From NCBI GenBank assembly GCA_024680915.1, contig JAILBN010000071.1, positions 1-63,842 on the forward strand: a DNA stretch of 63,842 bases, in the 5' to 3' direction. This stretch comes from Treponemataceae bacterium. Its GTDB lineage: Bacteria > Spirochaetota > Spirochaetia > Treponematales > Treponemataceae. Below the pieces are notes generated by a model. The model made no database searches. It saw only the letters and a program-made list of their open reading frames with translations, and was not told where the DNA came from. Both the position numbers and the translations under genes were made by a program. Numbering within the stretch: position 1 is the stretch's first letter; each line of letters starts with the position of its first letter. Shown piece after piece: positions 8,480 to 28,906 of this stretch.

Positions 8480-8520
8480 TAATTTGCTCCATATTAGGGG
8501 GTTTCAAACCACATTGAATA

Positions 8521-8542
8521 ATGATATTATATATAATATCAT
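8521..8542. promoter_or_regulatory. Perfect 22-bp palindrome with back-to-back TATAAT boxes
   Basis: In the 89-bp gap between divergent genes, ATGATATTATA (8521-8531) is followed with no spacer by its exact reverse complement. TATAAT is present on the plus strand (8532-8537) and on the minus strand (8531-8526). No good -35 box was found for either direction. It could be a shared operator/promoter or form an AT-rich hairpin. Confidence 0.45.
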
Positions 8543-8568
8543 GTTTTTGTTAAAAGAAAAACCAGTAT

Positions 8569-9321: not shown

Positions 9322-9332
9322 GAGTAAATTCT

Positions 9333-12027: not shown

Positions 12028-12055
12028 TCATATTAACTAAAACCATAGGGAAATA

Positions 12056-12901
12056 ATGTGTAGTATGAAGAAAACATACATAAAAATCTTTGCAGGATTA
12101 GGTAACCAGATTTTCCAATATTGTTACGGGCTATTAAGGCAACAGGAAGGTATAAATGTACATTATATTCTTGCGAAGACATATGATAAAAATGGGAATA
12201 GCTATGATATAACAGATGTTTTTAATCTATTCGATATAAATGGGGCGTTGGCAAATAATATTTTCTCTCCAATGGGAAAGTTTTCAAATTTACGTATCAT
12301 TGCAAAAAAAATTTTTGCAAAATATATAATAGGCTCTTACGAGACAGATTTTTATCAAAAAGCTGACTATATTGAAAAATTAACGACAAAAAAAAGTATT
12401 CATGATTACATATCCTTTAGGAATAAAGAAATCTACATGCAAACGGACTTTTTCAAGCAAATAAAAAACTGCAAGAACTCTGTAAGCATGCATATCCGTG
12501 GTGGCGATTATCTTGGAGAAGGGAGCCCATTCAGTGGAATCTGTACGAATGAATATTACAAAAATGCAATTCGATATTTGAAGGAAAGGCTTGAAAACCC
12601 CCATTTTTTTATTTTTACCAATGATAGAGATTTTTGTAAATCAATTTTCAATCCTTTGGAAATAAAAAAGGAAGATTATACTATAATAAATGATGACTCC
12701 TCTTTAAAAGATGATCCAGGCTATGACTTGTTTTTAATGTCCACTTGTAATAATAATATAATAGCGAATTCTACTTACAGCTGGTGGGGTGCATACTTGA
12801 ACAAAAATGAAGATAAACTTGTTATAACTCCTGATAAATGGACGAATACAAACACTCCTTCGCTAGAAGAAATAAAACCAAAAAATTGGATACGGCTATG
12901 A
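12056..12901 (+). CDS. GT11 family fucosyltransferase-like (first copy)
   Basis: GT11 enzymes transfer L-fucose from GDP-fucose, usually in alpha-1,2 linkage. This 281-residue protein has FAGLGNQIFQYCYG at the N terminus, MHIRGGDYL (about residues 144-152) and the C-terminal NSTYSWWGAYLN motif of the family. The usual HxRRxD motif reads HIRGGD here, so the second arginine is replaced by glycine; the copy at 15437 keeps HIRRGD. AGGG lies 5 nt before the ATG. The next gene, a LicD homologue, starts inside its stop codon (ATGA). GDP-fucose can be made by gmd and fcl at 25718-27803. Confidence 0.82.
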   Translation: MCSMKKTYIKIFAGLGNQIFQYCYGLLRQQEGINVHYILAKTYDKNGNSYDITDVFNLFDINGALANNIFSPMGKFSNLRIIAKKIFAKYIIGSYETDFYQKADYIEKLTTKKSIHDYISFRNKEIYMQTDFFKQIKNCKNSVSMHIRGGDYLGEGSPFSGICTNEYYKNAIRYLKERLENPHFFIFTNDRDFCKSIFNPLEIKKEDYTIINDDSSLKDDPGYDLFLMSTCNNNIIANSTYSWWGAYLNKNEDKLVITPDKWTNTNTPSLEEIKPKNWIRL

Positions 12902-13749
12902 ATAAAAGGACAATTCCAGACAGGCGCTTAGAAAAAGATACACAGCTTGAACAAGCTCAAGAAGTGATGCTTGGTTTATTAAAAGTTTTTGTTGATATCT
13001 GCGAGAAAAACAATTTTACCTATTGGCTTGATGGTGGAACTCTTTTAGGAGCAGTACGTCATAAAGGTTTTATTCCTTGGGATGATGATTTGGATGTTTG
13101 TATGCCATTAGAAGATTACAAAAAATTTCTAGTCCTACCGGATTCAGAATTTCCTGAATATATCTATCATGACAAAAGGGATGGCTTTCAAAGGCTGAGA
13201 GATCGATACAGTAAGAGGATAGATGAAGAAACTGATTCTGACAAGGATTTTATAAGTATTTATATGGATATTTTCCCTATGAAAAAATATCCATATATGA
13301 GGAGAATACTTGCAAGAATAAGGATGTGTATGCCTCCTTACACTCCCCCAAGTATTAATAAAAACACTTCAAATAAAATTATAAAAATCAGAAGGTTGAT
13401 TGCAAACTTGGTTTTCTATTTATTAACCTATACTGGTTTACAATTTATTATCAGATTCTTATCTCTTTTTGGGCCTAAGACTGTATGGGGTTACGATTTA
13501 GGTGCCACATGGCATTTTCATTATAAAGATAAATGGATTTTTCCCCTCAAAAAAATGCAATTCGAAGACGATAGCTTTTATGTTCCTTATGATTGTGATG
13601 CCTACCTTTCTTACCTTTATGGGAAAGACTATATGACTCCTAAACCAGATAACCATCATAATAATATAAGTATTCTTCCTACAACGCCTTGTAATCATCC
13701 GGAAGCAAGAAATTGGTTTGAGGATTTTCCTGAGACCATGAAAAAATAA
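12898..13749 (+). CDS. LicD family phosphotransferase (first copy)
   Basis: LicD proteins transfer a phosphoryl ligand such as phosphocholine from a CDP-activated donor onto a glycan. The 283-residue protein has YWLDGGTLLGAVRHKGFIPW followed by DDDLDV (around residue 57), the nucleotidyltransferase-like metal site, and an RYSKRID stretch and a middle hydrophobic segment near residues 165-185. The start at 12898 is chosen for the ATGA overlap with the GT11 stop, in place of an in-frame ATG 60 bp earlier inside that gene. With the choline genes at 18494-22572, phosphocholine is the best-supported ligand, but this is inference. Confidence 0.88.
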   Translation: MNKRTIPDRRLEKDTQLEQAQEVMLGLLKVFVDICEKNNFTYWLDGGTLLGAVRHKGFIPWDDDLDVCMPLEDYKKFLVLPDSEFPEYIYHDKRDGFQRLRDRYSKRIDEETDSDKDFISIYMDIFPMKKYPYMRRILARIRMCMPPYTPPSINKNTSNKIIKIRRLIANLVFYLLTYTGLQFIIRFLSLFGPKTVWGYDLGATWHFHYKDKWIFPLKKMQFEDDSFYVPYDCDAYLSYLYGKDYMTPKPDNHHNNISILPTTPCNHPEARNWFEDFPETMKK

Positions 13750-13801
13750 TCAAAGGTCATCAAAATGATTGTATAGGAGCATATTATAAAAGGATTTTTC
13801 G

Positions 13802-14563
13802 ATGAAGATATTTGTAATAAATTTAAAAAATGCTGAGGAACGGAGAAATTTCATGACTCAGCAACTAAAAGAATTAAACCTCGATTTTGAATTTATAGAT
13901 GCTATTTATGGTAAAGATTTCTATGATGATGACAAGTATTTTGCCAGGGAAGCTTCAAAAAAATATGAAAAAAGATTGATGACCCCTGGAGAAATAGGTT
14001 GTGCTCTTAGTCATCAAATAATTTATAAAAAAATGATTGCTGAGAATATTCCCTATGCCCTTATTTTTGAAGATGATGCTGTTATCTCCCCTGACCTTAT
14101 CAAGGTTTTACCTGAACTTGAAAAAAACATTCATCCTAATCAAATGATTAATCTTGCAAAGTGTGACCTAGCTTACAAAAAAAACAGGATACATATCTAT
14201 GGTGAATACTTTCTTTCTAAACCTTATATGGTAAAATATGGTTCGATAGCATATGCAGTAGGTTATATAATAACAAAAGAAGCAGCGGAAACAATACTTT
14301 CAATAAATTTTCCGGTATTTACGCCTGCGGATAACTGGGGCTGCTTTAGAAAACTAATAGATTTCCGAGGCATAACACCTACACATAAATTAGTTCGTCA
14401 AAATATGTCTTTTGAAAGTTCGATAATCACAGGTATAAGAGATACATCAAAAAGTTCAACAATTGGAACTATGCTCTTTTATCATTTTTATACACAATGG
14501 GCTTTAGGTCGTTTTTTGAAAAAAATATATCAAAGAACAGTAAAGAAATGGATGAAAAAATGA
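13802..14563 (+). CDS. Glycosyltransferase family 25
   Basis: This 253-residue protein resembles LPS/LOS GT25 galactosyltransferases such as LgtB/LpsA. It starts MKIFVINLKNAEERR, continues with the FIDAIYGKDF strand, MTPGEIGCALSHQIIYKKM (about residues 60-78) and YALIFEDDAVI with the acidic metal motif. The typical KYGSIAYAVGYIITKEAA stretch lies further on. AAAGGA 7 nt upstream supports the ATG. The C terminus is very basic, fitting a membrane-associated cytoplasmic enzyme. It lies between the two GT11-LicD pairs. Confidence 0.82.
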   Translation: MKIFVINLKNAEERRNFMTQQLKELNLDFEFIDAIYGKDFYDDDKYFAREASKKYEKRLMTPGEIGCALSHQIIYKKMIAENIPYALIFEDDAVISPDLIKVLPELEKNIHPNQMINLAKCDLAYKKNRIHIYGEYFLSKPYMVKYGSIAYAVGYIITKEAAETILSINFPVFTPADNWGCFRKLIDFRGITPTHKLVRQNMSFESSIITGIRDTSKSSTIGTMLFYHFYTQWALGRFLKKIYQRTVKKWMKK

Positions 14564-14625
14564 CAAGCGAAGAAATAAAGACAATCTATTCTGAATTGAA
14601 TAATTCATTTAAAGAGGTAAAATAA
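14560..14625 (+). CDS. Possible 21-codon ORF coupled to GT25 gene
   Basis: An ATG inside the GT25 stop (ATGA at 14560-14563) opens a 21-residue frame, MTSEEIKTIYSELNNSFKEVK, ending 3 bp before the next gene. It covers almost all of the gap. It could be a translated coupling peptide or the remnant of a deleted gene; it could also be chance. There is no homology evidence. Confidence 0.25.
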   Translation: MTSEEIKTIYSELNNSFKEVK

Positions 14626-14628
14626 TAT

Positions 14629-15450
14629 ATGCCTACGATTGTACAAGAAGGCACTGCAGCCAAGGGAAATATATATAGTCAAGCTGATGTAACTGTTATC
14701 ATACCTGCCTTTAATTCGGAAAAAACAATTGTCAGAGCCTTAGATTCAGTTTATAAACAAAATAAACGACCAGCAAAGATATTGATCATCAACGATGGTA
14801 GTAAAGATAATACTGAGATCGTATGCAGAGAATGGATTAGTAATAATCCTGATATAGCTTGTGATTTTATAACAACAGAAAACAAAGGTGTTTCAAGTGC
14901 AAGAAACGAAGGATTAAAGCTAGCGAAAACCTCCTTGGCAGCTTTTCTCGATTCAGATGATACCTGGACACCTGATAAAATTGAAAAACAACTTGAGGTA
15001 TTTAATAGCAATTCATTTTCTTTATGCAACTTAGTCTGTACCGGAAGTATTTTACGTTCAGTTTCTGGGAAAACATATCAATTATCAAAAAGAAAACTTT
15101 TATTTAGCAATCTTGTTGTTACATCGTCTGTTTTAGTAAAAACAGACGTTATTAAAAAATATTTTTTTGATAGCAGACTTAAACGTTCCGAAGACTTTAA
15201 TCTTTTGTTAAAAATAGCCGCAAGAGACAAAGGAATAATAATTGTAGATTCAATCCTTACCAATTATACGATTGATTCTACGCAAAACAAACTTTCAAAT
15301 GATAAGAAGAATTTTCAAAAGGATGAAATAAGAAATTTTTGTTTTCTATTAAATGAACATTATATTTCTTTAGGAGAATTTCTCCTAGCATCAATATTTT
15401 CTTACATAAAATACATTAGAAGAGGTATTATTAAACATGAAAATTGTTAG
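14629..15450 (+). CDS. Glycosyltransferase family 2
   Basis: The 273-residue protein is a standard GT2 enzyme: VTVIIPAFNSEKTIVRALDS (about residues 17-36), INDGSKDNT for the nucleotide, SSARNEGLKLAK, and FLDSDDTW with the DxD-like metal site (about 104-111). The catalytic half ends near residue 200 with KRSEDFNLLLKIA. The first 15 residues before the domain are not conserved-looking. GAGG 9 nt upstream of the ATG supports the start. It overlaps the following GT11 gene by 14 bp. Confidence 0.82.
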   Translation: MPTIVQEGTAAKGNIYSQADVTVIIPAFNSEKTIVRALDSVYKQNKRPAKILIINDGSKDNTEIVCREWISNNPDIACDFITTENKGVSSARNEGLKLAKTSLAAFLDSDDTWTPDKIEKQLEVFNSNSFSLCNLVCTGSILRSVSGKTYQLSKRKLLFSNLVVTSSVLVKTDVIKKYFFDSRLKRSEDFNLLLKIAARDKGIIIVDSILTNYTIDSTQNKLSNDKKNFQKDEIRNFCFLLNEHYISLGEFLLASIFSYIKYIRRGIIKHENC

Positions 15451-16357
15451 AATTTCAGGGGGACTTGGAAATCAGATGTTTCAATACGCCTTTTCCCTGG
15501 CATTGAAACATGCTGGAAATAAAGATGTTAAGCTTGATTTAAGTGCTTATGGTAGAAAAACTGATTATAAAGGTATAGATCTTGTACACAATGGTTTTGA
15601 ACTTAAAGAGCTTTTTGATGTTGATTACCAAGAAGCCTCTGAATTGGAAGTTTCTACCCTATCCTATCAGCCTACTTCATTATTTAATCGTATCTTAAGA
15701 AAATATTTCACAAAAAAAACACACTTTATTGATAAGCAATTCTCTTTTCAGCCGGATTTACTGCTTCCAAATAACAATAATACATATTTGGAGGGAGATT
15801 GGCAAAGTGAGAAGTATTTTTTGTCATTAGAGGAAGAAATCAGACGATGTTTTTCTTTTAAAAAAAAGCTGTCATCAGAAACAGAGAGAATTGTAACTGA
15901 ACTTTCTTGCAATAGTGCCAGCATTCATATTCGTCGTGGCGACTATCTGAATACGCAGACTATGAATATATGTGGCAAAAAATATTATCTTAATGCAGTT
16001 AATAAAATGATTACCCTTGCCCCCATAGATGAATTACTCGTATTCAGCGATGATATGGATTGGTGTCGTAATGAATTGAAACTTGAGGATTTTGGCTTTA
16101 AAGTCATTTATGTGGATTGGAATCAAGGCAAGGACAGTTGGCAGGATATGTTCCTGATGTCAAAATGTAGGAATCATATAATTGCGAATTCTTCGTTCTC
16201 TTGGTGGGGAGCTTGGTTGGATCCAAACAAGAATAAAATTGTAATATGTCCTGAAATATGGGATTTACGGCAACTGAATCCTAATATAGACAAGTATTAC
16301 AGGTACAATTATAATGATATTATTCCTTTCGGTTGGTTGCTTTGCCCCATAAAATAA
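15437..16357 (+). CDS. GT11 alpha-1,2-fucosyltransferase (second copy)
   Basis: The 306-residue protein has the full set of GT11 motifs: ISGGLGNQMFQYAFSLAL at the start, YLEGDWQSEKYF in the middle, SIHIRRGDYLN (about residues 161-171, intact HxRRxD) and IIANSSFSWWGAWLD near the end. It should transfer fucose from GDP-L-fucose to a galactose or similar residue, likely in alpha-1,2 linkage. Like the first copy it is followed directly by a licD gene. The two GT11 proteins share motifs but differ in length and in most other residues, so the duplication is not recent. Confidence 0.9.
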   Translation: MKIVRISGGLGNQMFQYAFSLALKHAGNKDVKLDLSAYGRKTDYKGIDLVHNGFELKELFDVDYQEASELEVSTLSYQPTSLFNRILRKYFTKKTHFIDKQFSFQPDLLLPNNNNTYLEGDWQSEKYFLSLEEEIRRCFSFKKKLSSETERIVTELSCNSASIHIRRGDYLNTQTMNICGKKYYLNAVNKMITLAPIDELLVFSDDMDWCRNELKLEDFGFKVIYVDWNQGKDSWQDMFLMSKCRNHIIANSSFSWWGAWLDPNKNKIVICPEIWDLRQLNPNIDKYYRYNYNDIIPFGWLLCPIK

Positions 16358-16374
16358 AAGAAACAGGTCTTATC

Positions 16375-17301
16375 GTGGATACAGAAATTAAAGTAAATGA
16401 TTATAAACCAGAAAAAGCAGCAGAATTATTTCCTGATGAAAGACTTAAGGAAGGAAGCAACCTACAGAGAGCCCAGCGGGTAATGCTCCGCATACTGAAG
16501 GTTTTTAATGCAATCTGCAGAAAATATGATCTGGAATACTGGTTGGATGCTGGTACACTTTTAGGCGCAGCTCGTCATGGTGGTTTTATTCCATGGGATG
16601 ATGATGTGGATGTAATGATGCCTATTGAAAGCTATGAAAAGTTCTGTTCTATAGCAGAAAAAGAACTACCTTTCGATATGTTTTTCCAGACAAAGAAAAC
16701 AGATTCACAACATGATATTACATGGGCAAAAATCCGTGATCGTTTCAGCTATATGGAAGACCCAGGAGGACCATATCCATACTGTCAGGGAATACCAATA
16801 GATATTTTTCCTGCATATATTCAAACAAAAAGACAATTCAAAAAACGTAACATCGTTAGTCTTTTCCCACCCTTTAATAATCCTCCATTGAAAATTTCAA
16901 AGCGGTATTCTTTTATGCACAATGCATATAACTTTATTATTGGATTTTTTCAACATTTTGCGAAAGGCTTTTATTCTATACCATTATTTTATAATCGTTT
17001 TGACAGAAGAATGAAGGCACAGTTGCCTGATAATGTAAAAGGATTTGCCTATAATCCAGAACGACCTTGGTTTCAATTCTTCCCTATTGACGTTGTTTTT
17101 CCCCTTTCTGAAATTACTTTCGAAGGATATTCTTTTTCTGCTCCAAATGATGTGGATAAATATTTAACCATAGATTATGGAGACTGGAGAACCCCACCCC
17201 CAGAGAATAAAAGAGATGTTCATGGTACTACAGGTATTCATCTGACAGACGCTGGTCCCAGCCCTGACAAGAATAGTTTGAAGTGGGAAGATTACCATTA
17301 A
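16375..17301 (+). CDS. LicD family phosphotransferase (second copy)
   Basis: This protein of about 308 residues shares the LicD core LEYWLDAGTLLGAARHGGFIPWDDDVDV (around residues 52-79) with the copy at 12898, including RAQRVMLRILKVF before it and a C-terminal WRTPPPENKRD segment. It is expected to place a phosphoryl group such as phosphocholine on the glycan. The start is uncertain. GTG at 16375 with ACAGG 7 nt upstream is preferred; TTG codons at 16333 and 16342 lie inside the preceding gene without a ribosome-binding site. It completes the second GT11-LicD pair. Confidence 0.87.
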   Translation: MDTEIKVNDYKPEKAAELFPDERLKEGSNLQRAQRVMLRILKVFNAICRKYDLEYWLDAGTLLGAARHGGFIPWDDDVDVMMPIESYEKFCSIAEKELPFDMFFQTKKTDSQHDITWAKIRDRFSYMEDPGGPYPYCQGIPIDIFPAYIQTKRQFKKRNIVSLFPPFNNPPLKISKRYSFMHNAYNFIIGFFQHFAKGFYSIPLFYNRFDRRMKAQLPDNVKGFAYNPERPWFQFFPIDVVFPLSEITFEGYSFSAPNDVDKYLTIDYGDWRTPPPENKRDVHGTTGIHLTDAGPSPDKNSLKWEDYH

Positions 17302-17319
17302 ATAAGGGAGCTTGTTCAT

Positions 17320-18441
17320 ATGCGTATTCTTCATATTATAACGAATACAGACCTGGGAGGAGCACAACGAATTGTAATAGATTTATGTGCCTCGGCAGTT
17401 AAGGATGGTCATACTGTAGCGGTGGCGTCAATGGAAGGGGGGCCAATGTGGTCGCTTCTACCAGAGTCTGTAGTTCGTCATTCCTTACCGCATATGGTAA
17501 AGCCTATAAAACCCTTGAAAGAAATCCCTTGTTTTTTTGAAATAAGAGCTGTCATAAAAAACTTTAATCCTGACATCATCCATCTTCATTCTAGTAAAGC
17601 AGCCCTTTTAGGAAGACTTGCCACCCCTCCCAGACTACAAAAAAGAATTGTGTATACTGTCCATGGATTTGATACAATCCGGGTTCGAAACCGCATATTT
17701 CTTCCATTAGAAAAAATCATGCAGAAAAAATGCGGTGCTATTATTCCAGTCTCAGAATATGACTACAAAAATTTAAGAACTGAAGGTATTACGCATAAGC
17801 TTACTCTCATAAGGAACGCTGTTCCTGACACACCTGCTTTCTCAGAACATGAATTACCCTTGCAGATAAAAGAACCTCTCTTGAAGGCAAAAGCTGAAGG
17901 TAAAAAAATTATTATGACAATAGCTCGTATTGCTCTTCCTAAAAGATTAGATATATTTACCGATATAGCAAGGTCATTAAAAGATGATAACTGTGTTTTC
18001 TTCTGGATTGGCTCTCCTACTGATAGTACATTGGAAGGAGATTTGAAGAAATATCAAGAAACAGCATCTGTAATTTTTACCGGAGATATTCCCAATGCAT
18101 CCCGTCTCATTTCATATACAGATGTTTTTGTACTTTTTTCAGACTATGAAGGTCTCCCTATAACCATACTTGAAGCCATGGCAAAAGGCAAACCCGTCAT
18201 CGCATCGAATGTGGGAGGAATATCAGAACTTGTGGATGATAATACCGGCAGCCTTATTCCAGTCGGAAAAACACATGATTCAGTAGAAGCTTCTGTTAAG
18301 GCAATAAAAACACTTATTTCTGATAAAAAACTTATTCAGGAAAAGGGTGAGAAAGCCAGAAAAAAATACGAAAGCTATTTTACACTTGATACTATGTGGA
18401 AAAAATATTTTTCTGTTTATTCTCTTTTGGCCGATGAATAA
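17320..18441 (+). CDS. Glycosyltransferase family 4
   Basis: The 373-residue protein is a GT-B glycosyltransferase: TDLGGAQRIVIDL (about residues 10-22), IHLHSSKAALLGR, VYTVHGFD, then the second domain with IARIALPKR and DYEGLPITILEAMAKGKPVIA (about 272-292) carrying the E-x7-E donor motif. It ends the central plus-strand run of the glycan locus and stands tail to tail with the choline-island operon. AGGGAG upstream supports the ATG start. The sugar it transfers cannot be told from sequence. Confidence 0.88.
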   Translation: MRILHIITNTDLGGAQRIVIDLCASAVKDGHTVAVASMEGGPMWSLLPESVVRHSLPHMVKPIKPLKEIPCFFEIRAVIKNFNPDIIHLHSSKAALLGRLATPPRLQKRIVYTVHGFDTIRVRNRIFLPLEKIMQKKCGAIIPVSEYDYKNLRTEGITHKLTLIRNAVPDTPAFSEHELPLQIKEPLLKAKAEGKKIIMTIARIALPKRLDIFTDIARSLKDDNCVFFWIGSPTDSTLEGDLKKYQETASVIFTGDIPNASRLISYTDVFVLFSDYEGLPITILEAMAKGKPVIASNVGGISELVDDNTGSLIPVGKTHDSVEASVKAIKTLISDKKLIQEKGEKARKKYESYFTLDTMWKKYFSVYSLLADE

Positions 18442-18493: not shown

Positions 18494-20035
18494 TTATTTA
18501 TTTATTCCTTTTTCATTCATATACTTTTTGGAATCTTTTAAAAAGCTCCATATCATCAGAATCATTATTATACCAATGGGGAAAGCACTTATAATTGATA
18601 CAGACTGTATATTTCCCATCGAGCTTTCACTGAAAACGAGTGCGATAGGAAGAACTATAAGTAACAAACACCAGAGCAAAGTAATCATTGTATGTGGTTT
18701 TTCGTTCTGTCCCAGCTTCTTATAACTATAACAAGCCGCTGTGTATGCTATGGAGTCGAAACTCGTGGCATAGAAAGCTATCATACAGAGCAGAATCCAT
18801 ACAAGGAAAAACTTGCTTCCTGGTAAAGTATTGACAATATTCATTATCAAAGCATATAAATCACCACTAGCTTCGTATTGGGCTATGAAATTCTGAGCCC
18901 CTATGGTCTGTAAACCTAGACTATAATTACCCAATACAATAAAAGAAACAATAGTGCTACCTACACCAAAGATATACCCCCCAAGAATAGTCTGCTTCAC
19001 AGTCCTACCTCTGGATATATTTCCGATGAAGAATGGAGCCGCGATACACCAAACCATCCAATAAGCCCAGTAGTAAATTGTCCAATCTTGCGGGAAGTTA
19101 TTACTCCTTCCTGGATCAGCATATGTACTCAAACCGATAAATTCCTGGACCATTTTGCCAAGACTCTGTATTCCGTTCTCAATTATAAAACGTCCCTGTC
19201 CTCCAATAAAAAGGACAATTAGTAAAAGACCAAAAAACAGATATATACAAAGCTTTGCAAGAAAGGATATTCCCTTGAAACCGTGCAGAACAGCGTAAGT
19301 ATATACTGCACACGTAATAATCAGGATAATAATAGTTACTGCAGTACGAGAGATAGATATACCGAATAAGGTAACAATAATCTCTGCCATCAATGGGGTG
19401 GCGACTGAAAAGGTTGTAGCCGTACCAGCAAGCAAAGCGAACAATGCAAACAAGTCAATAATTCTGCCTATTATACCATGAGCATGTTTTTCACCAATAA
19501 CAGGAAGGCAGGCTTCGCTATAACGTTGTTTTTCTCTTTTTCTACAATGTAGCATAAAACCGAAGGCTACGGCCAGCACAAGGTAAAAAGCCCAAGGGAT
19601 AAAGCTCCAGTGAAACAAGGGAAATACTCCAGCCCACTCCGTAACACTTCCACCCATTTCTGAAATATGTGGATTCGTGGCATACATAACCCATTCCGCG
19701 AAACTATAGAATAAAATATCCGCTGCTAATCCACAAGTGAACATCATGGAGCCCCATGTGAAAAAATTGTATTTAGGTTTTTCGGTTTGCTCTCCAAGAA
19801 CAATATTTCCATACTTACTGAATGACAGAAAAATGGAGACTACAAGAACCCCGATTCCTATAATCAGGTAATAGCTCCCTAAGGTATCACCAAAAAAGAA
19901 TCTAACCTGAGAAATGACTCCATTTGCCTGATCAGGAAAGATAAAAAGGTATACAGCAAGAGCCATTATAATAATAAAAGGGACCAAAGTTATCATCCAG
20001 TCTATTCTGCTCTTTTCCCTTCCTGTATTTTTCAT
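18494..20035 (-). CDS. BCCT-family choline/betaine transporter
   Basis: BCCT carriers import choline, carnitine or glycine betaine with Na+ or H+. The 513-residue protein has about 12 hydrophobic segments and the family signature around WTIYYWAYWMVWCIAAPFF followed by GNISRGRTVKQ, with a Trp-rich substrate region. The start at 20035 is chosen because GTGAGG lies 6 nt upstream; the GTG at 20047 is itself part of that site. It is the last gene of a three-gene unit with LicCA and LicC, so choline is the likeliest substrate, in the role that LicB plays in Haemophilus. It ends before a strong terminator. Confidence 0.9.
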   Translation of the reverse strand: MKNTGREKSRIDWMITLVPFIIIMALAVYLFIFPDQANGVISQVRFFFGDTLGSYYLIIGIGVLVVSIFLSFSKYGNIVLGEQTEKPKYNFFTWGSMMFTCGLAADILFYSFAEWVMYATNPHISEMGGSVTEWAGVFPLFHWSFIPWAFYLVLAVAFGFMLHCRKREKQRYSEACLPVIGEKHAHGIIGRIIDLFALFALLAGTATTFSVATPLMAEIIVTLFGISISRTAVTIIILIITCAVYTYAVLHGFKGISFLAKLCIYLFFGLLLIVLFIGGQGRFIIENGIQSLGKMVQEFIGLSTYADPGRSNNFPQDWTIYYWAYWMVWCIAAPFFIGNISRGRTVKQTILGGYIFGVGSTIVSFIVLGNYSLGLQTIGAQNFIAQYEASGDLYALIMNIVNTLPGSKFFLVWILLCMIAFYATSFDSIAYTAACYSYKKLGQNEKPHTMITLLWCLLLIVLPIALVFSESSMGNIQSVSIISAFPIGIIMILMIWSFLKDSKKYMNEKGINK

Positions 20036-20090
20036 TAAAAACCTCACTTTATTGAAAAATCACAATATCTTATAAATAAAAAAAACTTTT

Positions 20091-20801
20091 TTATTTAATT
20101 TTATAAGATGGATCTATAACCACTAACTCGTCAAAACTATCAATCTCGCATATATCTTCACTTTTCATCGGGAATACACCTAGTTCAAAGCTTTCTGAAT
20201 GACAGAACATTGCTACATCATCCCAATATATCTGTCTATTATTTTTAGTGATGAATTCCTCTTCAAGGAAGGATTGTAGTTTTTTTCCGTCTTCTTTGGA
20301 CCAACGAGAAATACTGTATAACTGCCAGCCATCATTCCCACCAGTCCTGGAACAAGATGTTACAATTCCATCTTCATTTACTTGCATTACCCATTCATCT
20401 GTAGCATAATCAATTTTTACAGCATTATATCCTGACCGTTCGAAGTCAGGACAAAGAATAGTATCATTGTATATTATTTGATCACCATCAAGTATTATGA
20501 CATTATCAAGCTTTTCTTTTGCAACATATAATGAAGAAATATTATTACATGAATCAAAATAAGGATTCTCTATAATCTGAATTCCTTGCTGCCGTTCTGC
20601 CCATGAATAAAACTGTTCTTTTAAATATCCGACCACAACGTATATTTCATTAATTCCTTGTTTTCTCAAAGCAGCTATAATGGTATCTATCATTCGATTA
20701 CCGTTGACTTTTATCAATGGTTTGGGCGTTTTCAGCGTTACTGGTCGCATTCTGTTTCCCAGGCCTGCTGCCATTATTATTGCCCTTTCGACTCTATTCA
20801 T
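20091..20801 (-). CDS. licC: LicC-like CTP:phosphocholine cytidylyltransferase
   Basis: The 236-residue protein is a nucleotidyltransferase with AIIMAAGLGNRMRPVTLKTPKPL (residues 7-29), VVVGYLKEQF, NISSLYVAKE, a LDGDQ metal site near residue 99, and IYWDDVAMF plus CEIDSFDEL late in the chain. These segments closely follow pneumococcal LicC, which makes CDP-choline from CTP and phosphocholine. The upstream LicCA fusion already has such a domain, so this enzyme may be redundant or may use another phospho-alcohol, for example phosphoethanolamine or 2-aminoethylphosphonate. It overlaps the LicCA stop by 8 bp. Confidence 0.8.
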   Translation of the reverse strand: MNRVERAIIMAAGLGNRMRPVTLKTPKPLIKVNGNRMIDTIIAALRKQGINEIYVVVGYLKEQFYSWAERQQGIQIIENPYFDSCNNISSLYVAKEKLDNVIILDGDQIIYNDTILCPDFERSGYNAVKIDYATDEWVMQVNEDGIVTSCSRTGGNDGWQLYSISRWSKEDGKKLQSFLEEEFITKNNRQIYWDDVAMFCHSESFELGVFPMKSEDICEIDSFDELVVIDPSYKIK

Positions 20802-22572
20802 CTTGATTCTTCCTTATTCTTTCAATCGCAATCTTATAATAATCTTTAGCATAACGATACTGACACAAAGAATATTCACCGAATTCTACGCCCAAAGAAC
20901 TTTTATATTCACACCAATTACTCCACAACAAACCGCAAGCTGATATATAACAATATATTTTGGTTATTATATCATCATTACATTTACTCTTATTGAATTT
21001 AAAATATGTTTCAATGAGATTATCAACTTGTTCTTTATTGTATAACGAATATATACAAAACATTGCTATATCAACATGAGGATCCTGCATACCAGCATAT
21101 TCCCAATCAATGAGACTTATACATTCTTTTCCTTCAGTATTGTTATATATTAAAAAATTATCAGGTACAGCATCTATATGAGTCAGTGACGAATCTTTTT
21201 TTTGACTATCAATAAAATGTTTTAATGAAAAAACATTATTCTTCGTATTTATATAATCTTTATAAGAAGAGGGTTTTCCTTCCCACAGGGATTCATAGAA
21301 TTCAGTCTGCCTAAAAATATCAAAAGAATGTTTAACCTTAAGACCTAATTCGTGAAATTGATTCAGTTTTCTCATACATTTCTCAAGATCTTCCTGATCA
21401 TAAGGATTGCATACTCTTGAATTTTCTATATATTTAGTTATTTTATAACCGGTTTCCGGATTAAAATAAACATTAGTATCACATATATCTTTTTCTTTCA
21501 AAGCCTCATAGACATCATATTCCTGCCTTCTATCTATGAGCATATCAGTACCTTCTCCTGGAATCCTCATTATATAACGTGCGTCACCGCATGAAAAAAT
21601 AAAAGAACGGTTCGTCATCCCTTTTTTTAATACTTTTATATTCTTTATAGAGTCAAGAGAAACATTAAAAACATCAGAGATCGTATCCAATACAACATGT
21701 TTCAGGCTTCTATTACTAGGGGAAAACGACCTTAGCTGTTCGTAGGTATTTATTTCGACGACACTATCAACAGCAATGGTATTTGGGGAAAATATCATCT
21801 TATTATTGAAAAAAGCGGCTTCCTCCCAGAAGGAAGAATCATATTTACTATTATCATCAAGCTCTTTCAATCTTGTTTTTAATTTAACTGAATCTTCCTT
21901 GTTTATGTAAGCTATGCCTATCATTCGCTTTTTTTTATTACTTTTATGACATTTTAACAATTCCATTTTTTTATTTACAATTATTTCAGAATCCTCATCG
22001 TAATCATCATTTATAAGGTACCATGAGTTCAGCTCAAATGTATTGAATTCATTATTCCTACACCATACATCACAAGGTACAATATATGCATCAGATAGAA
22101 AATCAGATGCCAAAAAAAGTGAATGGAGATTGTTTCTCTTAGCATATTCCGGATTACATATAAGTTTGACTCCATATTTATCGATCAAAAACTCATATGA
22201 TTCTTTCATAAATCCTACGACGACATAGATTTCATATATATTGACTTCATGCAATTGCTTGATGATACGCTCTATCAATGTTTCGTTGTCAATTATCAGC
22301 AAGCCTTTGGGCGTTTCAACATTAACAGGAACCATACGCATGCCATAGCCAGCTGCCAATATAATTGCTCTTTGTGGTTGATTGTCAGAAAATAATAATT
22401 CTGCTTTCTCTGTCAGATTATTGTTAAAATCAATAAAATTTTGAGATGTAAGGTTGTTTAACAGTTTGTTTACATTTCCCAATGAGAAACCTGTTTTTTT
22501 TGCAAGAAACCGTTGATTCATGCATTTATTCATTTTAATTATTTTTAAGAGTAAAACTTCTCTGGTGTTCAT
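20794..22572 (-). CDS. licCA: LicCA-like fusion: HTH, cytidylyltransferase and choline kinase
   Basis: The 592-residue protein has three parts. Residues 1-60 form a winged-helix-like HTH (NQRFLAKKTGFSLGNVNKLLNNL). Residues 68 to about 290 form a LicC-type cytidylyltransferase (AIILAAGYGMRMVP, VVGFMKESYEFL, SFWEEAAFF). Residues from about 300 form a choline/ethanolamine kinase (KKGMTNRSFIF, then HIDAVPDNF near 464 and LIDWEYAGMQDPHVDIAMF). It would phosphorylate choline and convert it to CDP-choline. A LicCA fusion is established in Treponema denticola for the CDP-choline pathway. The start at 22572 has AAAGG 7 nt upstream; an ATG seven codons earlier has none. Confidence 0.88.
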   Translation of the reverse strand: MNTREVLLLKIIKMNKCMNQRFLAKKTGFSLGNVNKLLNNLTSQNFIDFNNNLTEKAELLFSDNQPQRAIILAAGYGMRMVPVNVETPKGLLIIDNETLIERIIKQLHEVNIYEIYVVVGFMKESYEFLIDKYGVKLICNPEYAKRNNLHSLFLASDFLSDAYIVPCDVWCRNNEFNTFELNSWYLINDDYDEDSEIIVNKKMELLKCHKSNKKKRMIGIAYINKEDSVKLKTRLKELDDNSKYDSSFWEEAAFFNNKMIFSPNTIAVDSVVEINTYEQLRSFSPSNRSLKHVVLDTISDVFNVSLDSIKNIKVLKKGMTNRSFIFSCGDARYIMRIPGEGTDMLIDRRQEYDVYEALKEKDICDTNVYFNPETGYKITKYIENSRVCNPYDQEDLEKCMRKLNQFHELGLKVKHSFDIFRQTEFYESLWEGKPSSYKDYINTKNNVFSLKHFIDSQKKDSSLTHIDAVPDNFLIYNNTEGKECISLIDWEYAGMQDPHVDIAMFCIYSLYNKEQVDNLIETYFKFNKSKCNDDIITKIYCYISACGLLWSNWCEYKSSLGVEFGEYSLCQYRYAKDYYKIAIERIRKNQDE

Positions 22573-22623
22573 TTTAAGACCTTTGTATGACATCTTGAAC
22601 AGGCTATTACTTTTTTTTTATGC

Positions 22624-22720: not shown

Positions 22721-24109
22721 ATGTTAGTTATGAAATTTTCAAGGAAACGTAGACAATTTTTCATTTTTTTTATTGATCTTCTGATAATGATTTTATCTGT
22801 TTATATTTCTTTGGCGATAAGAAATTTATATTTACCTACTTTTCTTTCATTTTTAGTCCATTTATTGAATTATCCACTTGTAATATTAACATGGGTTGTG
22901 ATTATGTATACCTTGGGTATGTATTCACTGGAGATACCCTTCCGTACAGACAAGACTCTGATAAAACTATTGGTGAGTGCTACCGCCGGAACTCTTGTAG
23001 GTTTCGCTACCTTTTACCTTTTTTCCTCCGATGATGGAATTCTCCCTAAAACTGTTCTTGTCGTATATAATCTTACATCTCTTTTCCTCATCTACTTTTG
23101 GAGATATATTTTTGACAAGCATTTTTCAAATAATAAAAACCTTAATAAATATGTTTTCATAGGATATAACGAAACTGTAGAAAGCTTGCTTGAGCTTACC
23201 AGCAAGAATTCATATGTGAATTTTTCTCCTACAGCTGTATTTGACGAATTTATAAGCATTCGTCCCTCTAATTTACCAGAATCAGTTACTTTCTTGCATA
23301 CATACGATGAACTTAAGATTTTTTTAGCAAATAATACTATAAAAGTTTATGTGATGCCTTCAGAAAAGATTTTTTCTTCTGAAGTCAGACGTCTTTTGTT
23401 CGATGCTTTAAGTAACAGAGCTGTTTTTTATTCTTTGCCTGATTTTTTTGAAGTTATGACCCGCAGGATACCTCTAGGCGCAATAAATGAATCTTGGTTT
23501 CTACGTCATATTCATTTTGAAAGCCGTGGACTTTACTATATATTAAAAAGATTTTTTGATGTTATCATTTCAGGAACTCTTTTATTGATAACAATTGTTT
23601 TTTGGCCATTATTTGCTATAATAATAAAGGTAGAAAGCAAAGGACCTGTTTTCTTCAGGCAGATTCGAGAGGGTAAAAGTGGCAAAAGATTTACACTATA
23701 CAAATTCAGAACTATGAGAAGCGAAGACAATAATTTTTCTCCTACAACCGAAAAAGACAATAGAATCACCAAATTCGGGAATATAATGAGAAAAACAAGG
23801 ATTGATGAACTTCCTCAGCTCCTGAATGTCATTAAAGGGGATATGAGTCTTATAGGCCCGCGTCCAGAAAGGCCAGAGCTTTCAGCAGAATTAGAAACAA
23901 CCGTTCCTTTCTTCAAGCAGAGATTGATGGTAAAACCAGGAATAACTGGATGGGACCAAGTTTCAGGAGAATATCATTCCCCATCGAAGGAAGATACATA
24001 CAAAAAACTGCAATATGATTTATATTATATAAAAAATCAGTCTCCGATGCTTGATATATCAATTTTTTTCAAGACAATAATGACGATTTTTCTCCGGCAA
24101 GGAAGATAA
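22721..24109 (+). CDS. Polyprenyl glycosylphosphotransferase (WcaJ/WbaP type)
   Basis: This enzyme starts glycan synthesis by moving a sugar-1-phosphate from a nucleotide sugar to undecaprenyl phosphate. The 462-residue protein has an N-terminal block of about four membrane helices (13-125), a Rossmann-like middle domain (KYVFIGYNE onward), a further helix near 275, and the conserved catalytic domain with FRQIREGKSGKRFTLYKFRT, DELPQLLNVIKGDMSLIGPR and KPGITGWDQVSGEY. The sugar is unknown. Two in-frame ATG codons (22721, 22730) are possible starts. It lies 6 bp before the outer membrane protein gene. Confidence 0.93.
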   Translation: MLVMKFSRKRRQFFIFFIDLLIMILSVYISLAIRNLYLPTFLSFLVHLLNYPLVILTWVVIMYTLGMYSLEIPFRTDKTLIKLLVSATAGTLVGFATFYLFSSDDGILPKTVLVVYNLTSLFLIYFWRYIFDKHFSNNKNLNKYVFIGYNETVESLLELTSKNSYVNFSPTAVFDEFISIRPSNLPESVTFLHTYDELKIFLANNTIKVYVMPSEKIFSSEVRRLLFDALSNRAVFYSLPDFFEVMTRRIPLGAINESWFLRHIHFESRGLYYILKRFFDVIISGTLLLITIVFWPLFAIIIKVESKGPVFFRQIREGKSGKRFTLYKFRTMRSEDNNFSPTTEKDNRITKFGNIMRKTRIDELPQLLNVIKGDMSLIGPRPERPELSAELETTVPFFKQRLMVKPGITGWDQVSGEYHSPSKEDTYKKLQYDLYYIKNQSPMLDISIFFKTIMTIFLRQGR

Positions 24110-24115: not shown

Positions 24116-25675
24116 ATGTTAAAAAAATTATTTTTATTTTTAGGTCTGATATTTTCAGTCCTGTTCCCATTTTTCTCTGAAGGAAAATATAAAATAAATA
24201 AAGTCACCTATGATATTTCTGGTATTACCAGGGAATCTGTCCTTTCTCAAAATCTAAATATTGATACATCAACTATTTTTGAGTCATCAGAAGATTTTTA
24301 TGCTTACTTAGAAACAATAAAACAGAATATAGAGAATTATAGGGTCATAGAAAGTTCTGAAATCATAGAATCCTTTTCCGAAGAAAATGAAGAAGGATTA
24401 ATTTACGTTGATTTAATCATAAAAACCGTTGATTCATTAAATTTTGTTATAGTCCCCTATCCTACATATGATGTTAACACTGGTTTTAAGCTTAAACTGA
24501 AAATCAAAGATTATAATTTTCTTGGATCTATGGATGAATTCAACAGTTCTTTGATTTATTTCCTTAAAATCGATGAAGATAGTGGTAATGCATCAAATTA
24601 TTTTGATTTTTCTTTTGGCTTTGATGTACCTTTTCAGTTAGGTCTATTTAATTGCAAATGGAACAATGCCTTTTCTTTGAACTATGTCATAGGCGATTCT
24701 AATATAGGTTTTAATATAAAAGAAGGTATAGATTTTAGCGCACCTATTTATAATATCACTACATTCAATTTTAATCTTTCTCAAAGTTTTATACAAAATC
24801 CAGCATTAAATAATGATGATTTATTTCATTTCAACACATCGGCATCTCTTTCCCTTCCTTTTAATATTGCCCAAATACCAAATGTAGGTTATTTGACCTG
24901 GGCTCCAGGAGTTTCCTTTAATTTCAACTGGGATAAGGATATTTTTTTAGGAGCAGATGATTTCGGTATAACTACACCATATTTGCTTGGTCCTGTCCTG
25001 ACAATTTTCCAAAGACTTTCTGTATCAAGGGTTAATTGGATTGAGAATTATAAAGATGGCTTCTCTACGCAAGTTAATATAAACTATTCTTATAACTTCA
25101 CCACATATTCCTATGATCCAAATATAAATATGCAGCTGGAATATTACAAGGCATACACCAAAAACTCTATTTCATCACGATTATACTATTTTATAAATAC
25201 TAACGGTCAGAATTCTCCAGTCGGAGATAGAATTCGTGGTATTCGAGATAATGATATCTCTTCCGCAAGTGCATTTTGTTTGAATATAGATGTTCCTATA
25301 AAATTATTTCAGACTGACTGGGTAGGATGGTTGAAAAACGCGACAGGAAAAGAATTGAATTGGTTAGCTTATGTGGATTTCGAAGCTCAGATTTCACCCT
25401 TTTTTGATTTTATAATCGGTCATAATTCCAAAACAGGTTCCTTTTTCAATTTTAGAGATGCTCACATAGCATCAGGTTTTGAAATTTTAGGTTTTCCAAA
25501 CAAGTTCAGGAGTATTCAAGGTCGTGTGAGCTTTGGAATGGACTTAGTAAAAGTCGCTATGTTTATAGGTGAAAATGTAAATTTTGTAAATAATCTAACG
25601 ACAAAAATTTTCAATACTTCTTGGAGAAAAGACCCTTGGTGGGAGCTATTTTTCGGCATAGGTCTTTTTTATTGA
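24116..25675 (+). CDS. BamA-like outer membrane beta-barrel protein with one POTRA-like domain
   Basis: The 519-residue protein has a signal peptide (hydrophobic residues 5-20), a POTRA-like domain at about 25-108 (KINKVTYDISGIT..., ending in a YVDLIIKTV strand), then about 400 residues of alternating strands rich in aromatic residues (KLKLKIKDYNFLG onward) and a C-terminal FFGIGLFY, which fits a barrel insertion signal. The layout is that of the Omp85/BamA superfamily, but with fewer POTRA domains than true BamA. It follows the initiating glycosyltransferase by 6 bp, suggesting a role in placing the glycan at the outer membrane. That role is inferred. Confidence 0.7.
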   Translation: MLKKLFLFLGLIFSVLFPFFSEGKYKINKVTYDISGITRESVLSQNLNIDTSTIFESSEDFYAYLETIKQNIENYRVIESSEIIESFSEENEEGLIYVDLIIKTVDSLNFVIVPYPTYDVNTGFKLKLKIKDYNFLGSMDEFNSSLIYFLKIDEDSGNASNYFDFSFGFDVPFQLGLFNCKWNNAFSLNYVIGDSNIGFNIKEGIDFSAPIYNITTFNFNLSQSFIQNPALNNDDLFHFNTSASLSLPFNIAQIPNVGYLTWAPGVSFNFNWDKDIFLGADDFGITTPYLLGPVLTIFQRLSVSRVNWIENYKDGFSTQVNINYSYNFTTYSYDPNINMQLEYYKAYTKNSISSRLYYFINTNGQNSPVGDRIRGIRDNDISSASAFCLNIDVPIKLFQTDWVGWLKNATGKELNWLAYVDFEAQISPFFDFIIGHNSKTGSFFNFRDAHIASGFEILGFPNKFRSIQGRVSFGMDLVKVAMFIGENVNFVNNLTTKIFNTSWRKDPWWELFFGIGLFY

Positions 25676-25717: not shown

Positions 25718-26797
25718 ATGAAAAATATTGCTTTGATTACAGGTATTACAGGTCAAGATGGCTCTTTTCTTGCAGAGTTTCTGCTTGACAAAGGATATGA
25801 AGTTCATGGAATTCTTCGAAGATCTTCATCTTTTAACACTGGTAGGATAGAACACCTCTATATAGAAGATTTAATAGAAGATATGCATAAAGATCGACGT
25901 ATTTATCTTCACTATGGTGATATGACAGATTCTATAAGTCTCACAAGGTTAATACGTGAGATTCAACCTACAGAAATATATAATCTTGCAGCACAATCCC
26001 ATGTTCAGGTTTCTTTTGAGGTACCAGAATATACCGCAGATACAGATGCCACAGGGGTTCTTCGTATTCTTGAAGCGGTACGTTTCCTTGGACTTGAAAA
26101 AACATGCCGTGTTTATCAAGCCTCAACTTCAGAATTATTCGGAAAAGTACAAGAGATTCCACAAAAAGAGACAACGCCCTTTTATCCGCGTTCTCCATAT
26201 GCAGTAGCTAAACAATATGGATATTGGATTATAAAAAATTATAGAGAAAGCTATGGAATGTATGCTGCTAATGGAATTCTATTCAATCATGAATCAGAAC
26301 GAAGAGGAGAAACATTCGTCACAAGAAAAATAACACTTGCGGCCAGTAGGATTGCAAATGGATTCCAAAAAAAATTATATCTTGGTAATCTTAACAGCTT
26401 ACGTGATTGGGGATATGCGAAGGATTATGTTGAATGCATGTGGTTGATTCTACAACAGAAGGAACCAGAGGATTTTGTCATAGCAACAGGGGAGCAATAT
26501 TCAGTAAGGCAGTTCTGTCAGCTTGCTTTTAAGGAAGCTGGAATCGACATTGAATTCAAAGGTGAAGGACTAGATGAAAAGGGCTACGATAAGGCAAGTG
26601 GAAAAGTTCTTATTGAAGTAGATCCCAAGTATTTCAGACCTTGTGAAGTCGATACTCTATTGGGAGATCCCACAAAAGCAAAAGAAAAATTAGGGTGGAA
26701 CCCAAGAAAAACAAGCTTTGAGGAACTTGTAAAAATCATGATGAAGCATGATCTTGAATTTGTCGTAAAAGAAGCAAATTCAAGAATAAAAAAATAA
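25718..26797 (+). CDS. gmd: GDP-mannose 4,6-dehydratase
   Basis: Gmd converts GDP-D-mannose to GDP-4-keto-6-deoxymannose, the first committed step to GDP-L-fucose. The 359-residue protein has [15 protein letters not shown] (8-22, NADP-binding), [13 protein letters not shown], the STSELFGK segment with the catalytic Thr/Glu region, [10 protein letters not shown] with the catalytic Tyr and Lys near 159-163, and [15 protein letters not shown], a highly specific Gmd motif. Length is normal. AAGGA upstream supports the ATG. With fcl 34 bp downstream it supplies the donor for the two GT11 enzymes. Confidence 0.96.
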
Positions 26798-26831: not shown

Positions 26832-27803
26832 ATGAACGAGAATTCACGCATATATGTAGCTGGACATAGGGGTCTTGTAGGAAGTGCAATTGTACGCAAC
26901 TTACAATCGAAAGGATATCAGAATCTTATAACCAGATCCCATAGTGAACTGGACTTATTAAAGCAAGCAGATGTTGATAATTTTTTTAAACAAGAAAAAC
27001 CTGAATATGTTTTTCTTGCGGCTGCTCATGTAGGAGGAATAGGAGCAAATTCCACCTACCCTGCTGATTTCATCTACCAGAACATGATGATAGGATTCAA
27101 TATAGTAGAAGCATCAAGAAAATATGATGTAAAAAAATTAATGAATCTGGGCTCAACATGTATATATCCCAAAATGGCTCCTCAACCGATACAGGAAGAA
27201 TCCCTCCTGACAGGCCCCCTTGAACCCACAAATGATGCTTACGCCCTGGCTAAAATCAGCGTTATAAAGCTTTGTACAGCCTATAACAAACAGTACAATA
27301 CAGACTTTCTGTCTGTAATGCCTACTAATTTATATGGAATCGGTGATAACTATGAGTTATTTGGTTCTCATGTTCTCCCTGCTCTTATTCGGAAATTTCA
27401 TGAAGCTAAAGTAAGCGGAAAAAATGAAGTTGAATTATGGGGAGACGGATCTCCCCTTAGGGAATTCCTTTTCAGTGATGATCTTGCAGAAGCGGTCGTT
27501 TTTCTAATGGAGAACTGTAAAGCATCTGATTTAAGAACACCCACAGGAGACTTCGTCAATGTTGGAAGCGGAAAAGAACTGACAATAAAGGAACTTGCAG
27601 AAACTATAAAAGATATAGTTTATGAGGATTCTCCTGATCAAGTGTGTAAGATTTCCTGGGATAAATCCAAACCCAACGGGACTCCAAGAAAACTTTGCGA
27701 TATTACAAGACTTTTAAAATTAGGATGGACTCCAAAAACTGATCTTAAAGACGGTATAAGAATCTCCTATGAGGATTTTTTGAAAGCCTCAACTAGAATG
27801 TAA
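26832..27803 (+). CDS. fcl: GDP-L-fucose synthase
   Basis: Fcl (WcaG) epimerises and reduces GDP-4-keto-6-deoxymannose to GDP-L-fucose. The 323-residue protein shows IYVAGHRGLVGSAIVRNL (7-24), AAHVGGIGANSTYPADF, NLGSTCIYPKMAPQPIQE with the catalytic Ser and Cys, YALAKISV (Tyr/Lys near 137-141) and MPTNLYGIGDNY. All are standard for the family. It is the last plus-strand gene of the glycan locus. No clear T-rich terminator follows; only a weak AT hairpin lies in the gap to the convergent gene. Confidence 0.96.
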   Translation: MNENSRIYVAGHRGLVGSAIVRNLQSKGYQNLITRSHSELDLLKQADVDNFFKQEKPEYVFLAAAHVGGIGANSTYPADFIYQNMMIGFNIVEASRKYDVKKLMNLGSTCIYPKMAPQPIQEESLLTGPLEPTNDAYALAKISVIKLCTAYNKQYNTDFLSVMPTNLYGIGDNYELFGSHVLPALIRKFHEAKVSGKNEVELWGDGSPLREFLFSDDLAEAVVFLMENCKASDLRTPTGDFVNVGSGKELTIKELAETIKDIVYEDSPDQVCKISWDKSKPNGTPRKLCDITRLLKLGWTPKTDLKDGIRISYEDFLKASTRM

Positions 27804-27819: not shown

Positions 27820-27841
27820 ATTAATATTTGAAGATATTAAT
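27820..27841. other. AT-only inverted repeat between convergent genes
   Basis: ATTAATAT (27820-27827) and ATATTAAT (27834-27841) pair around TTGAAG at the stop of the TPR gene. The stem has no G-C pair, so it is at best a weak bidirectional terminator. Confidence 0.3.
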
Positions 27842-28906
27842 AAGATTTGTGATATTTTTATCAGGACAAACATCCTTTAAGGCCTCAAACATCTGTTCTC
27901 CAAGGATTGGATTTCCTTTATAGAACAGTAGTTTACCAAAGTCATAAAAGCCTTTCCATACACTGTTATCAGTCATCCATTCTTTTATATCCCTATATTT
28001 CAGAGCCTCTGAAAAGAAAGAATTCAATGTCGTATAAGCATATTTATTGTTTCTGGATATTAATATCTCATAAATTCTTGTAAATGAAGTAAGAACAGAA
28101 AGGACTCCTGTATAATAAGCACGGTCATTCTCATTTTTTGAAAGATAATAATCTGTTAACTTTAGTAAAGCATTCAGGGATTTATAGTGAGAACTTCTGT
28201 AAAGCAAAAAAAACTGATTGATAGACTTTTCTTTCAGGGAGTATGAGATAATTGCATTCAGATATGGTGTATATCTGTCGTTATTTACGAAATCAGTATT
28301 ATTTCTTAAAACCTGCAAAAGGTAAGATTCAAATATATCTTCTTTTTTTTGTAAGCGGGCAAGCTCTGCCGCATCATACAGAATATCATATCTTTCATCG
28401 GGAACATCAAGGACAGAGCTGTTTTCCAATGCTTTTTCATAAAAGTCGGCTGCAGCTGAATATTCACCTTCCTGCATATAAATTTTTGCAATCAAATAAT
28501 CTGCTTCAGGATAATTTGTTCTGTTTTTGTAAAAATCCTTTATATTCGTAATAGAATTATTAAAAAATTCATTGCCATATAAATCTGTCAGTTTATGTAT
28601 GTACATCAATGCATCATTTTCCATTCTTTCCGTCAATATTTCCTCTACATCAGGAATAAAATCACCGACCTCTTGTACAGCAAGAGGCTTTAAGGCATTT
28701 TCTAAAGCATTTATCGCAGATGTACTTTCATTTTTTCGTATTTCTTTTGCGTTTTCAGCATCTTTTAAAGCAAGCCCAACGTTACCTTCTTCAAACTTCA
28801 TTCTGGCAGAATCAAGACTTTTCCAAGCATCATCATAACTTAAAGAATGTAAGGAATAAATTGAAGAACAAAGAACAAGAAGAAAAACAAATTTAAGATT
28901 TCTCAC
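27821..28906 (-). CDS. Exported TPR-repeat protein
   Basis: The 361-residue protein has an N-terminal signal peptide (NLKFVFLLVLCSSIYSLHS); a Cys in the hydrophobic part is not in a clear lipobox. Two helical blocks follow, and EADYLIAKIYMQEGEYSAAADFYEKAL (about residues 134-160) is a good tetratricopeptide repeat, with more degenerate helical repeats after it. It is probably periplasmic and mediates protein contacts; no partner is known. Its ATG overlaps the ispG stop (ATGA), so it is the last gene of the V-ATPase/ispG unit. Confidence 0.7.
   Translation of the reverse strand: MRNLKFVFLLVLCSSIYSLHSLSYDDAWKSLDSARMKFEEGNVGLALKDAENAKEIRKNESTSAINALENALKPLAVQEVGDFIPDVEEILTERMENDALMYIHKLTDLYGNEFFNNSITNIKDFYKNRTNYPEADYLIAKIYMQEGEYSAAADFYEKALENSSVLDVPDERYDILYDAAELARLQKKEDIFESYLLQVLRNNTDFVNNDRYTPYLNAIISYSLKEKSINQFFLLYRSSHYKSLNALLKLTDYYLSKNENDRAYYTGVLSVLTSFTRIYEILISRNNKYAYTTLNSFFSEALKYRDIKEWMTDNSVWKGFYDFGKLLFYKGNPILGEQMFEALKDVCPDKNITNLINIFKY

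Follow-up and report, generated by a model that had tools for sequence, protein, structure and literature searches.

The gene at the centre of this analysis lies in a stretch of 63,842 nucleotides from a Treponemataceae bacterium (contig JAILBN010000071.1), referred to here as the window, and encodes a predicted Omp85-like outer membrane protein with a single POTRA domain, for which we use the working name Omp85L. Its reading frame is intact and begins with ATG, and the stop codon of the preceding gene ends exactly 6 bp before that start codon, confirming the gap given by the first-pass annotation; the neighbour was correctly called a polyprenyl glycosylphosphotransferase (GPT), as it carries PF02397. 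Downstream, 42 bp separate Omp85L from gmd, which is followed by fcl on the same strand, and GPT, Omp85L, gmd and fcl look like a single operon (Table 1). The upstream glycan cluster includes rhamnose genes and two fucosyltransferase-family genes, and the gene content of the region indicates that the local glycan probably carries rhamnose, fucose and phosphocholine. A phosphocholine decoration module can be discerned beside the operon, comprising the BCCT transporter, the HTH-LicC-LicA fusion, a second nucleotidyltransferase-like gene and two LicD genes. The sole minus-strand gene inside the upstream glycan cluster encodes a GHMP kinase fused to a nucleotidyltransferase. On the other side of the operon, a gene for a secreted TPR protein is convergent with the cluster and adjoins ispG; it recurs in 19 of the 38 loci with callable ORFs that make up our neighbourhood set (L056, L058 and L059 yielded no Omp85L protein).

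Table 1. Omp85L, its predicted parts and the surrounding genes, in window coordinates.
Feature	Position	Strand	Basis or remark
Upstream glycan cluster: GT1/GT4, GT2, GT11, GT25, RmlD, RmlC, nucleotidyltransferase	1621-18441	+	
GHMP kinase + nucleotidyltransferase fusion	6536-8479	-	
LicD family, second copy	12838-13749	+	
LicD family	16333-17301	+	
Phosphocholine decoration module, with the two LicD genes above	18494-22593		
BCCT (betaine/carnitine/choline) transporter	18494-20047	-	
HTH + nucleotidyltransferase + choline/ethanolamine kinase fusion, LicC-LicA type	20794-22593	-	
GPT, polyprenyl glycosylphosphotransferase, initiating enzyme	22721-24109	+	PF02397 (4.2e-63) and CoA_binding_3; passes TIGR03025
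Omp85L, single-POTRA Omp85-like outer membrane protein, 519 aa	24116-25675	+	Intact ORF, ATG start
Omp85L predicted signal peptide, residues 1-21	24116-24178	+	Hydrophobic N-terminus by sequence
Omp85L single POTRA, residues 24-106	24185-24433	+	b-a-a-b-b order in model
Omp85L beta-barrel, residues 110-517, likely 18 strands	24443-25666	+	DSSP count and BamA/TamA/FhaC matches
Omp85L P-Y-P in barrel strand 1 (predicted lateral-gate strand), residues 114-116	24455-24463	+	Alignment A1
Omp85L likely extra strand pair relative to BamA, residues 237-272	24824-24931	+	Strand count around loop 6
Omp85L loop-6 RG, R374-G375	25235-25240	+	Invariant, 37/37 sequences
gmd, GDP-mannose 4,6-dehydratase	25718-26797	+	TIGR01472
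fcl, GDP-L-fucose synthase	26832-27803	+	NF047922, 446.6 bits, below its 500-bit cut-off
Secreted TPR protein	27821-28906	-	Adjoins ispG

Single-sequence searches with Omp85L returned no relevant Pfam or NCBIfam match and nothing usable among PHROGs or PDB sequences; the Omp85 barrel family PF01103 went undetected by sequence, no plasmid record was matched, and a profile of the protein found no match among PDB sequences. Homologues (E<=1e-3) are present in 44 of the 59 genomes searched, that of the window included, and Omp85L is therefore not a chance ORF. Named species that carry it include T. lecithinolyticum, T. saccharophilum, T. berlinense and Brucepastera parasyntrophica. Thirty-seven of these proteins were aligned (alignment A1), with the 435-aa protein of L067 excluded. 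The search for Omp85 and POTRA profiles proposed in the first-pass annotation turned up a match, though not through Pfam: its HMMs left the family unrecognised apart from weak matches to the POTRA profile PF07244 in 3 of the 37 homologues, whereas a profile-profile comparison with 14 treponemal BamA proteins aligned residues 25-285 of Omp85L (E 5.3e-6, probability 86%) with the last POTRA and the first barrel strands of BamA. A D-x-N-F-L-G signature in strands 2-3 is visibly common to both families. No profile alignment to treponemal BamA was achieved for residues 286-519, and the fold assignment of that part consequently rests on the structural model.

The AlphaFold2 model of Omp85L, computed from the 37-sequence input (pLDDT 90.7, pTM 0.81), contains a low-confidence N-terminal helix at residues 2-15, one POTRA domain and an Omp85-type barrel. 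Every one of the best 50 VIA matches is an Omp85 or Sam50 structure (Z 16.2-18.7), BamA itself aligning over 365 residues at Z 18.7 and rmsd 5.7; the best 50 Foldseek matches are BamA, CdiB and TamA entries, and FhaC and Sam50 are also among the structure matches listed. Together with the treponemal BamA alignment, the model bears out the earlier description of a single-POTRA Omp85-like protein, and it places Omp85L in the Omp85 superfamily as a Pfam-unrecognised subfamily with one POTRA. Most Omp85 proteins handle protein, and a shared fold is no proof of function.

The predicted structure departs from the textbook Omp85 barrel in several respects. Solved members of the superfamily have 16 barrel strands, which in BamA are arranged as 11 before loop 6 and 5 after it. 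Counted by DSSP from residue 110, Omp85L has 13 strands on the N-terminal side of the RG loop and 5 on the C-terminal side, which gives a barrel of likely 18 strands, two above BamA, on a count made on one model. When the barrel was aligned alone with VIA, the 16 BamA strands mapped onto residues 137-519 with rmsd values of 4.2-6.8 Å, high figures that fit a barrel of different size. An alternation test of the extra pair supported strand 9 and was weak for strand 8 (p 0.26), as it was for several other strands. In strand 1, P114 is found in all 37 sequences and P116 in 31 of them, and no strand-1 proline occurs in the aligned segments of the 14 treponemal BamA proteins. Prolines also lie near the lateral gate of LptD. 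Two gate prolines of LptD are mentioned as essential in the accessible part of one report (PMC8407342). We infer that the strand-1 seam of Omp85L may open easily. The loop-6 motif of Omp85 proteins is (V/I)RG(F/Y); in Omp85L it takes a variant form, in which the arginine is preceded by L, I, M or V (36/37) and the glycine is followed by I or V, never by F or Y. The C-terminal residue is aromatic throughout (Y in 33 and F in 4 of the 37 proteins).

Linkage of the barrel to glycosylphosphotransferases, which the first-pass annotation had put forward for a neighbourhood survey, proved to be conserved. With a POTRA/Omp85 match present as well, neither of the outcomes that the annotation had named as refuting its reading occurred. 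Across the 59 genomes, 41 hold both Omp85L and GPT, 3 Omp85L alone, 2 GPT alone and 13 neither (Fisher p 1.3e-8, phylogeny ignored), and the corresponding counts for the 45 better genomes are 34, 3, 1 and 7 (p 2e-5, again ignoring phylogeny). Of five families tested, GPT shows the strongest co-occurrence with Omp85L. The flippase family PF01943 and Wzz, which served as controls, show no such association (p 0.22 each), and BamA (p 0.047) and DUF6675 (p 0.003) are weaker than GPT. Among the 44 Omp85L genomes, GPT lies less than 200 bp away in 17, at 200-2000 bp in 6, at 2-40 kb in 6 and further off in 3, while it is on another contig in 9 and absent in 3; in 23 of the 41 genomes that hold both, the two genes are thus no more than 2 kb apart. 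In a draw of 296 genomes from the phylum, treated as one draw throughout on the strength of matching genome handles, 77 gave an Omp85L profile match, and in the family of the window GPT sits immediately upstream on the same strand in 26 of the 33 genomes for which both positions were listed. The arrangement extends beyond the family of the window: in G316, which belongs to another family within its class, a GPT gene lies 55 bp upstream of the Omp85L homologue.

The remaining neighbours are varied. Omp85L is accompanied by an ABC-2 permease and an ABC ATPase of Wzm/Wzt type in three loci (L053, L055, L057), by an ABC gene of one cluster in four (L063, L064, L066, L068; the scanned member, in L064, is a half-transporter), by NeuB in L037, L041 and L067, and by Wzi in L034 and L064; UDP-sugar dehydrogenase and LicC-LicA genes also occur nearby in other loci, whereas L051 and L069 have no clear glycan neighbours save an APH/choline-kinase-like gene in L051. 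In L049 and L067, a LolA-like gene (PF17131) and FtsX/MacB genes take the place of GPT (in L067 by cluster membership), and in L068 FtsX/MacB genes, likewise identified by cluster membership, stand four genes away. These Lol-type neighbours at three loci suggest a lipoprotein or lipid cargo. The minus-strand segment L049:10741-15494 combines Omp85L with an unrecognised 397-aa protein, the LolA-like gene and two FtsX/MacB permeases, an arrangement that recalls the Borrelia BBJ23-29 cluster. A further neighbour, DUF6675 (PF20380), is present in 55 of the 59 genomes, often in several copies, and in 0 of 14 control genomes; on our reading of the hit positions, it adjoins Omp85L or GPT in twelve genomes (G003, G019, G037, G038, G042, G044, G045, G047, G048, G049, G053, G056), and the copies in the genome of the window are all on other contigs. 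The protein is secreted, and its model (pLDDT 88.9; L036:8397-9200 and relatives) resembles START/helix-grip proteins, the best VIA match reaching Z 12.5 at an rmsd of 2.7 across 142 residues and Foldseek giving E 8.6e-6, so that DUF6675 is likely a lipid-binding family with a START-like fold. Its proximity favours a lipid-linked cargo for Omp85L, and because of the DUF6675, LolA-like and FtsX/MacB neighbours we keep such a cargo in consideration beside a free polymer. A small unrecognised secreted protein with a conserved IEIGTAxYE motif (c30) is encoded between GPT and Omp85L in L044, L046 and L048 and accompanies them in L047 as well; the idea that it is a divergent DUF6675 was rejected.

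The structural matches and some of these neighbours also speak for another reading, in which Omp85L would be dedicated to assembling or flipping an outer membrane protein or surface lipoprotein of the glycan pathway, for instance a Wzi-like barrel, along the lines of BamA, TpsB or the Borrelia BBJ25 system. The folds nearest to Omp85L are protein handlers, Wzi-family genes and Lol-type genes are found at the loci just named, and the POTRA-less Omp85 protein BBJ25 is grouped with a MacB-like transporter and LolA in Borrelia, according to the accessible text of PMC13078400. However, the partner with which Omp85L most strongly co-occurs is GPT, a separate treponemal BamA is present, in the genome of the window among others, and most GPT-linked loci are without a visible dedicated outer membrane protein or lipoprotein gene, although they do contain several unrecognised secreted proteins. 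We regard this explanation as unlikely.

Rather improbable, too, is that Omp85L is a housekeeping factor of the Treponemataceae outer membrane, serving lipid or envelope homeostasis, that merely happens to be syntenic with a variable glycan cluster. Its breadth within the family speaks for such a role: in the phylum draw Omp85L is present in 46 of 49 family genomes, with GPT in 37 of these and no GPT found in the other 9, so the pair is not obligatory, and since Omp85L is nearly universal there, co-occurrence within the family alone is weak (37 genomes with both, 9 with Omp85L alone, 1 with GPT alone, 2 with neither). Moreover, ispG shares the locus in 18 of 38 loci and the ispG/V-ATPase flank is conserved in about half, and the Omp85L-GPT linkage is partly inherited synteny. 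Nevertheless, GPT adjacency persists where that flank differs (L042, L044-L048) and in G316, and the 13 of 59 genomes that jointly miss Omp85L and GPT include several that are near complete, with two species of genus g28 lacking both and a third sampled member holding both. A TpsB-like secretor of one specific protein exported with the cluster is highly improbable, as FhaC and CdiB do appear among the structure matches but Omp85L has one POTRA rather than two and no large TpsA-like gene was recognised among the scanned proteins of the window's cluster.

Treponemes have elaborate surface sugars, yet they are without Wza and, by profile, without LptD, and we know of no established route by which these sugars leave the cell. 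The OPX profile PF02563 matched in 5 of the 59 genomes, one above the cut-off, and not in the genome of the window. The absence of LptD noted in the first-pass annotation agrees with our finding of no PF04453 match in that genome; across the 59 the profile matched twice, once above the cut-off in a 1.1-Mb genome without Omp85L and without GPT, with the proviso that a divergent LptD could slip past it. Among 157 GPT-positive genomes of the phylum, 50 carry Omp85L, 15 a strong OPX and 0 both (p 0.002), a result that is confounded by phylogeny and is not part of our main evidence. In the phylum draw, six of the 59 genomes with a strong Omp85L match have weak OPX-like matches, two of them above the cut-off, and one genome with a strong OPX (G128) has a partial A1 match (E 8.7e-14, a 272-aa frame) that was excluded from the Omp85L count. 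The polymerisation markers Wzz and Wzy_C occur in 20 and 5 of the 59 genomes, respectively, and neither in that of the window.

Taken with the structure, this context leads us to propose, at a probability of roughly 0.5, that Omp85L is an outer membrane translocon for the local surface glycan or a glycolipid. The suggestion that the barrel inserts or secretes glycan components had been made in the first-pass annotation and is supported in part: gene context and co-occurrence agree with it, as do the missing OPX and LptD, and the persistence of the barrel in some genomes without GPT tells against it. Enzymes of the PF02397 family are established initiators of glycans on a polyprenyl carrier. 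In the proposed pathway, GPT would start the glycan on such a carrier, the enzymes encoded upstream would assemble it, rhamnose, fucose and phosphocholine being its probable constituents, and an inner membrane step that varies between species would flip it. In the periplasm, the single POTRA could take the glycan over, and the enlarged barrel, with its proline-weakened strand-1 seam and loop-6 lid, might release it either by way of the lumen or laterally to the outer leaflet. Omp85L would thereby take the place of Wza/OPX and perhaps that of LptD. A more detailed version, which we advance tentatively, would make Omp85L a novel kind of glycan exit in the outer membrane of the Treponemataceae, a single-POTRA translocon derived from Omp85 with 18 strands and a lateral gate weakened by proline. 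START-fold (DUF6675) or LolA-type lipid carriers would feed it in part, and it would insert glycolipids or export glycan, with neither Wza nor LptD involved. If the proposal is true, a glycan exporter would join the Omp85 superfamily, whose members are so far known mostly as handlers of protein and lipid. Since a candidate gene and its conserved partner can be named, the exit of sugars becomes testable in cultivable treponemes other than that of syphilis. Our literature search, in which few subscription journals were covered, showed no paper on the Omp85L family among those listed.

Among the Omp85 proteins, which Heinz and Lithgow reportedly classified in 2014, BamA resembles Omp85L in its POTRA-to-barrel order, the strand 2-3 signature, the loop-6 RG and a C-terminal membrane strand, but it has five POTRA domains, 16 strands and no strand-1 proline, as against one POTRA, 18 strands by count and the proline; moreover, some genomes that hold BamA are without Omp85L. 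TamA/TamL share the combination of Omp85 barrel and POTRA, with three POTRA domains in TamA where Omp85L has one. BBJ25, a POTRA-less Omp85 protein of 346 aa from Borrelia (PMC13078400, from the accessible text), is likewise a non-BamA Omp85 of a spirochaete, and Lol-type genes also lie near a few Omp85L homologues; the accessible text of that report describes no glycan context, whereas Omp85L carries a POTRA and has glycan neighbours. Identity of the two was rejected, as the A1 profile scores BBJ25 at 1.6 bits and Omp85L possesses a POTRA. LptD would share the proline-weakened lateral gate proposed for Omp85L, and a glycolipid cargo would be analogous; however, it combines a jelly-roll with 26 strands (PMC8407342, accessible part), where Omp85L has a POTRA and no PF04453 match. 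The role proposed here is that of Wza/OPX, from which Omp85L differs in fold and in having no PF02563 match in Pfam. EpsX and WzpX of Myxococcus, 18-strand barrels proposed to export polysaccharides in the available portions of PMC9601211 and PMC9603273, resemble Omp85L in strand number and in linkage to glycan synthesis genes, but as described there they are of AlgE/PgaA type with OPX partners, whereas Omp85L is of Omp85 type, has a POTRA and occurs in hosts nearly all without OPX; no AlgE/PgaA-type barrel is among its best 50 Foldseek and VIA matches. If Omp85L does export glycan, the growth of its barrel from 16 to 18 strands would parallel these myxobacterial polysaccharide porins.
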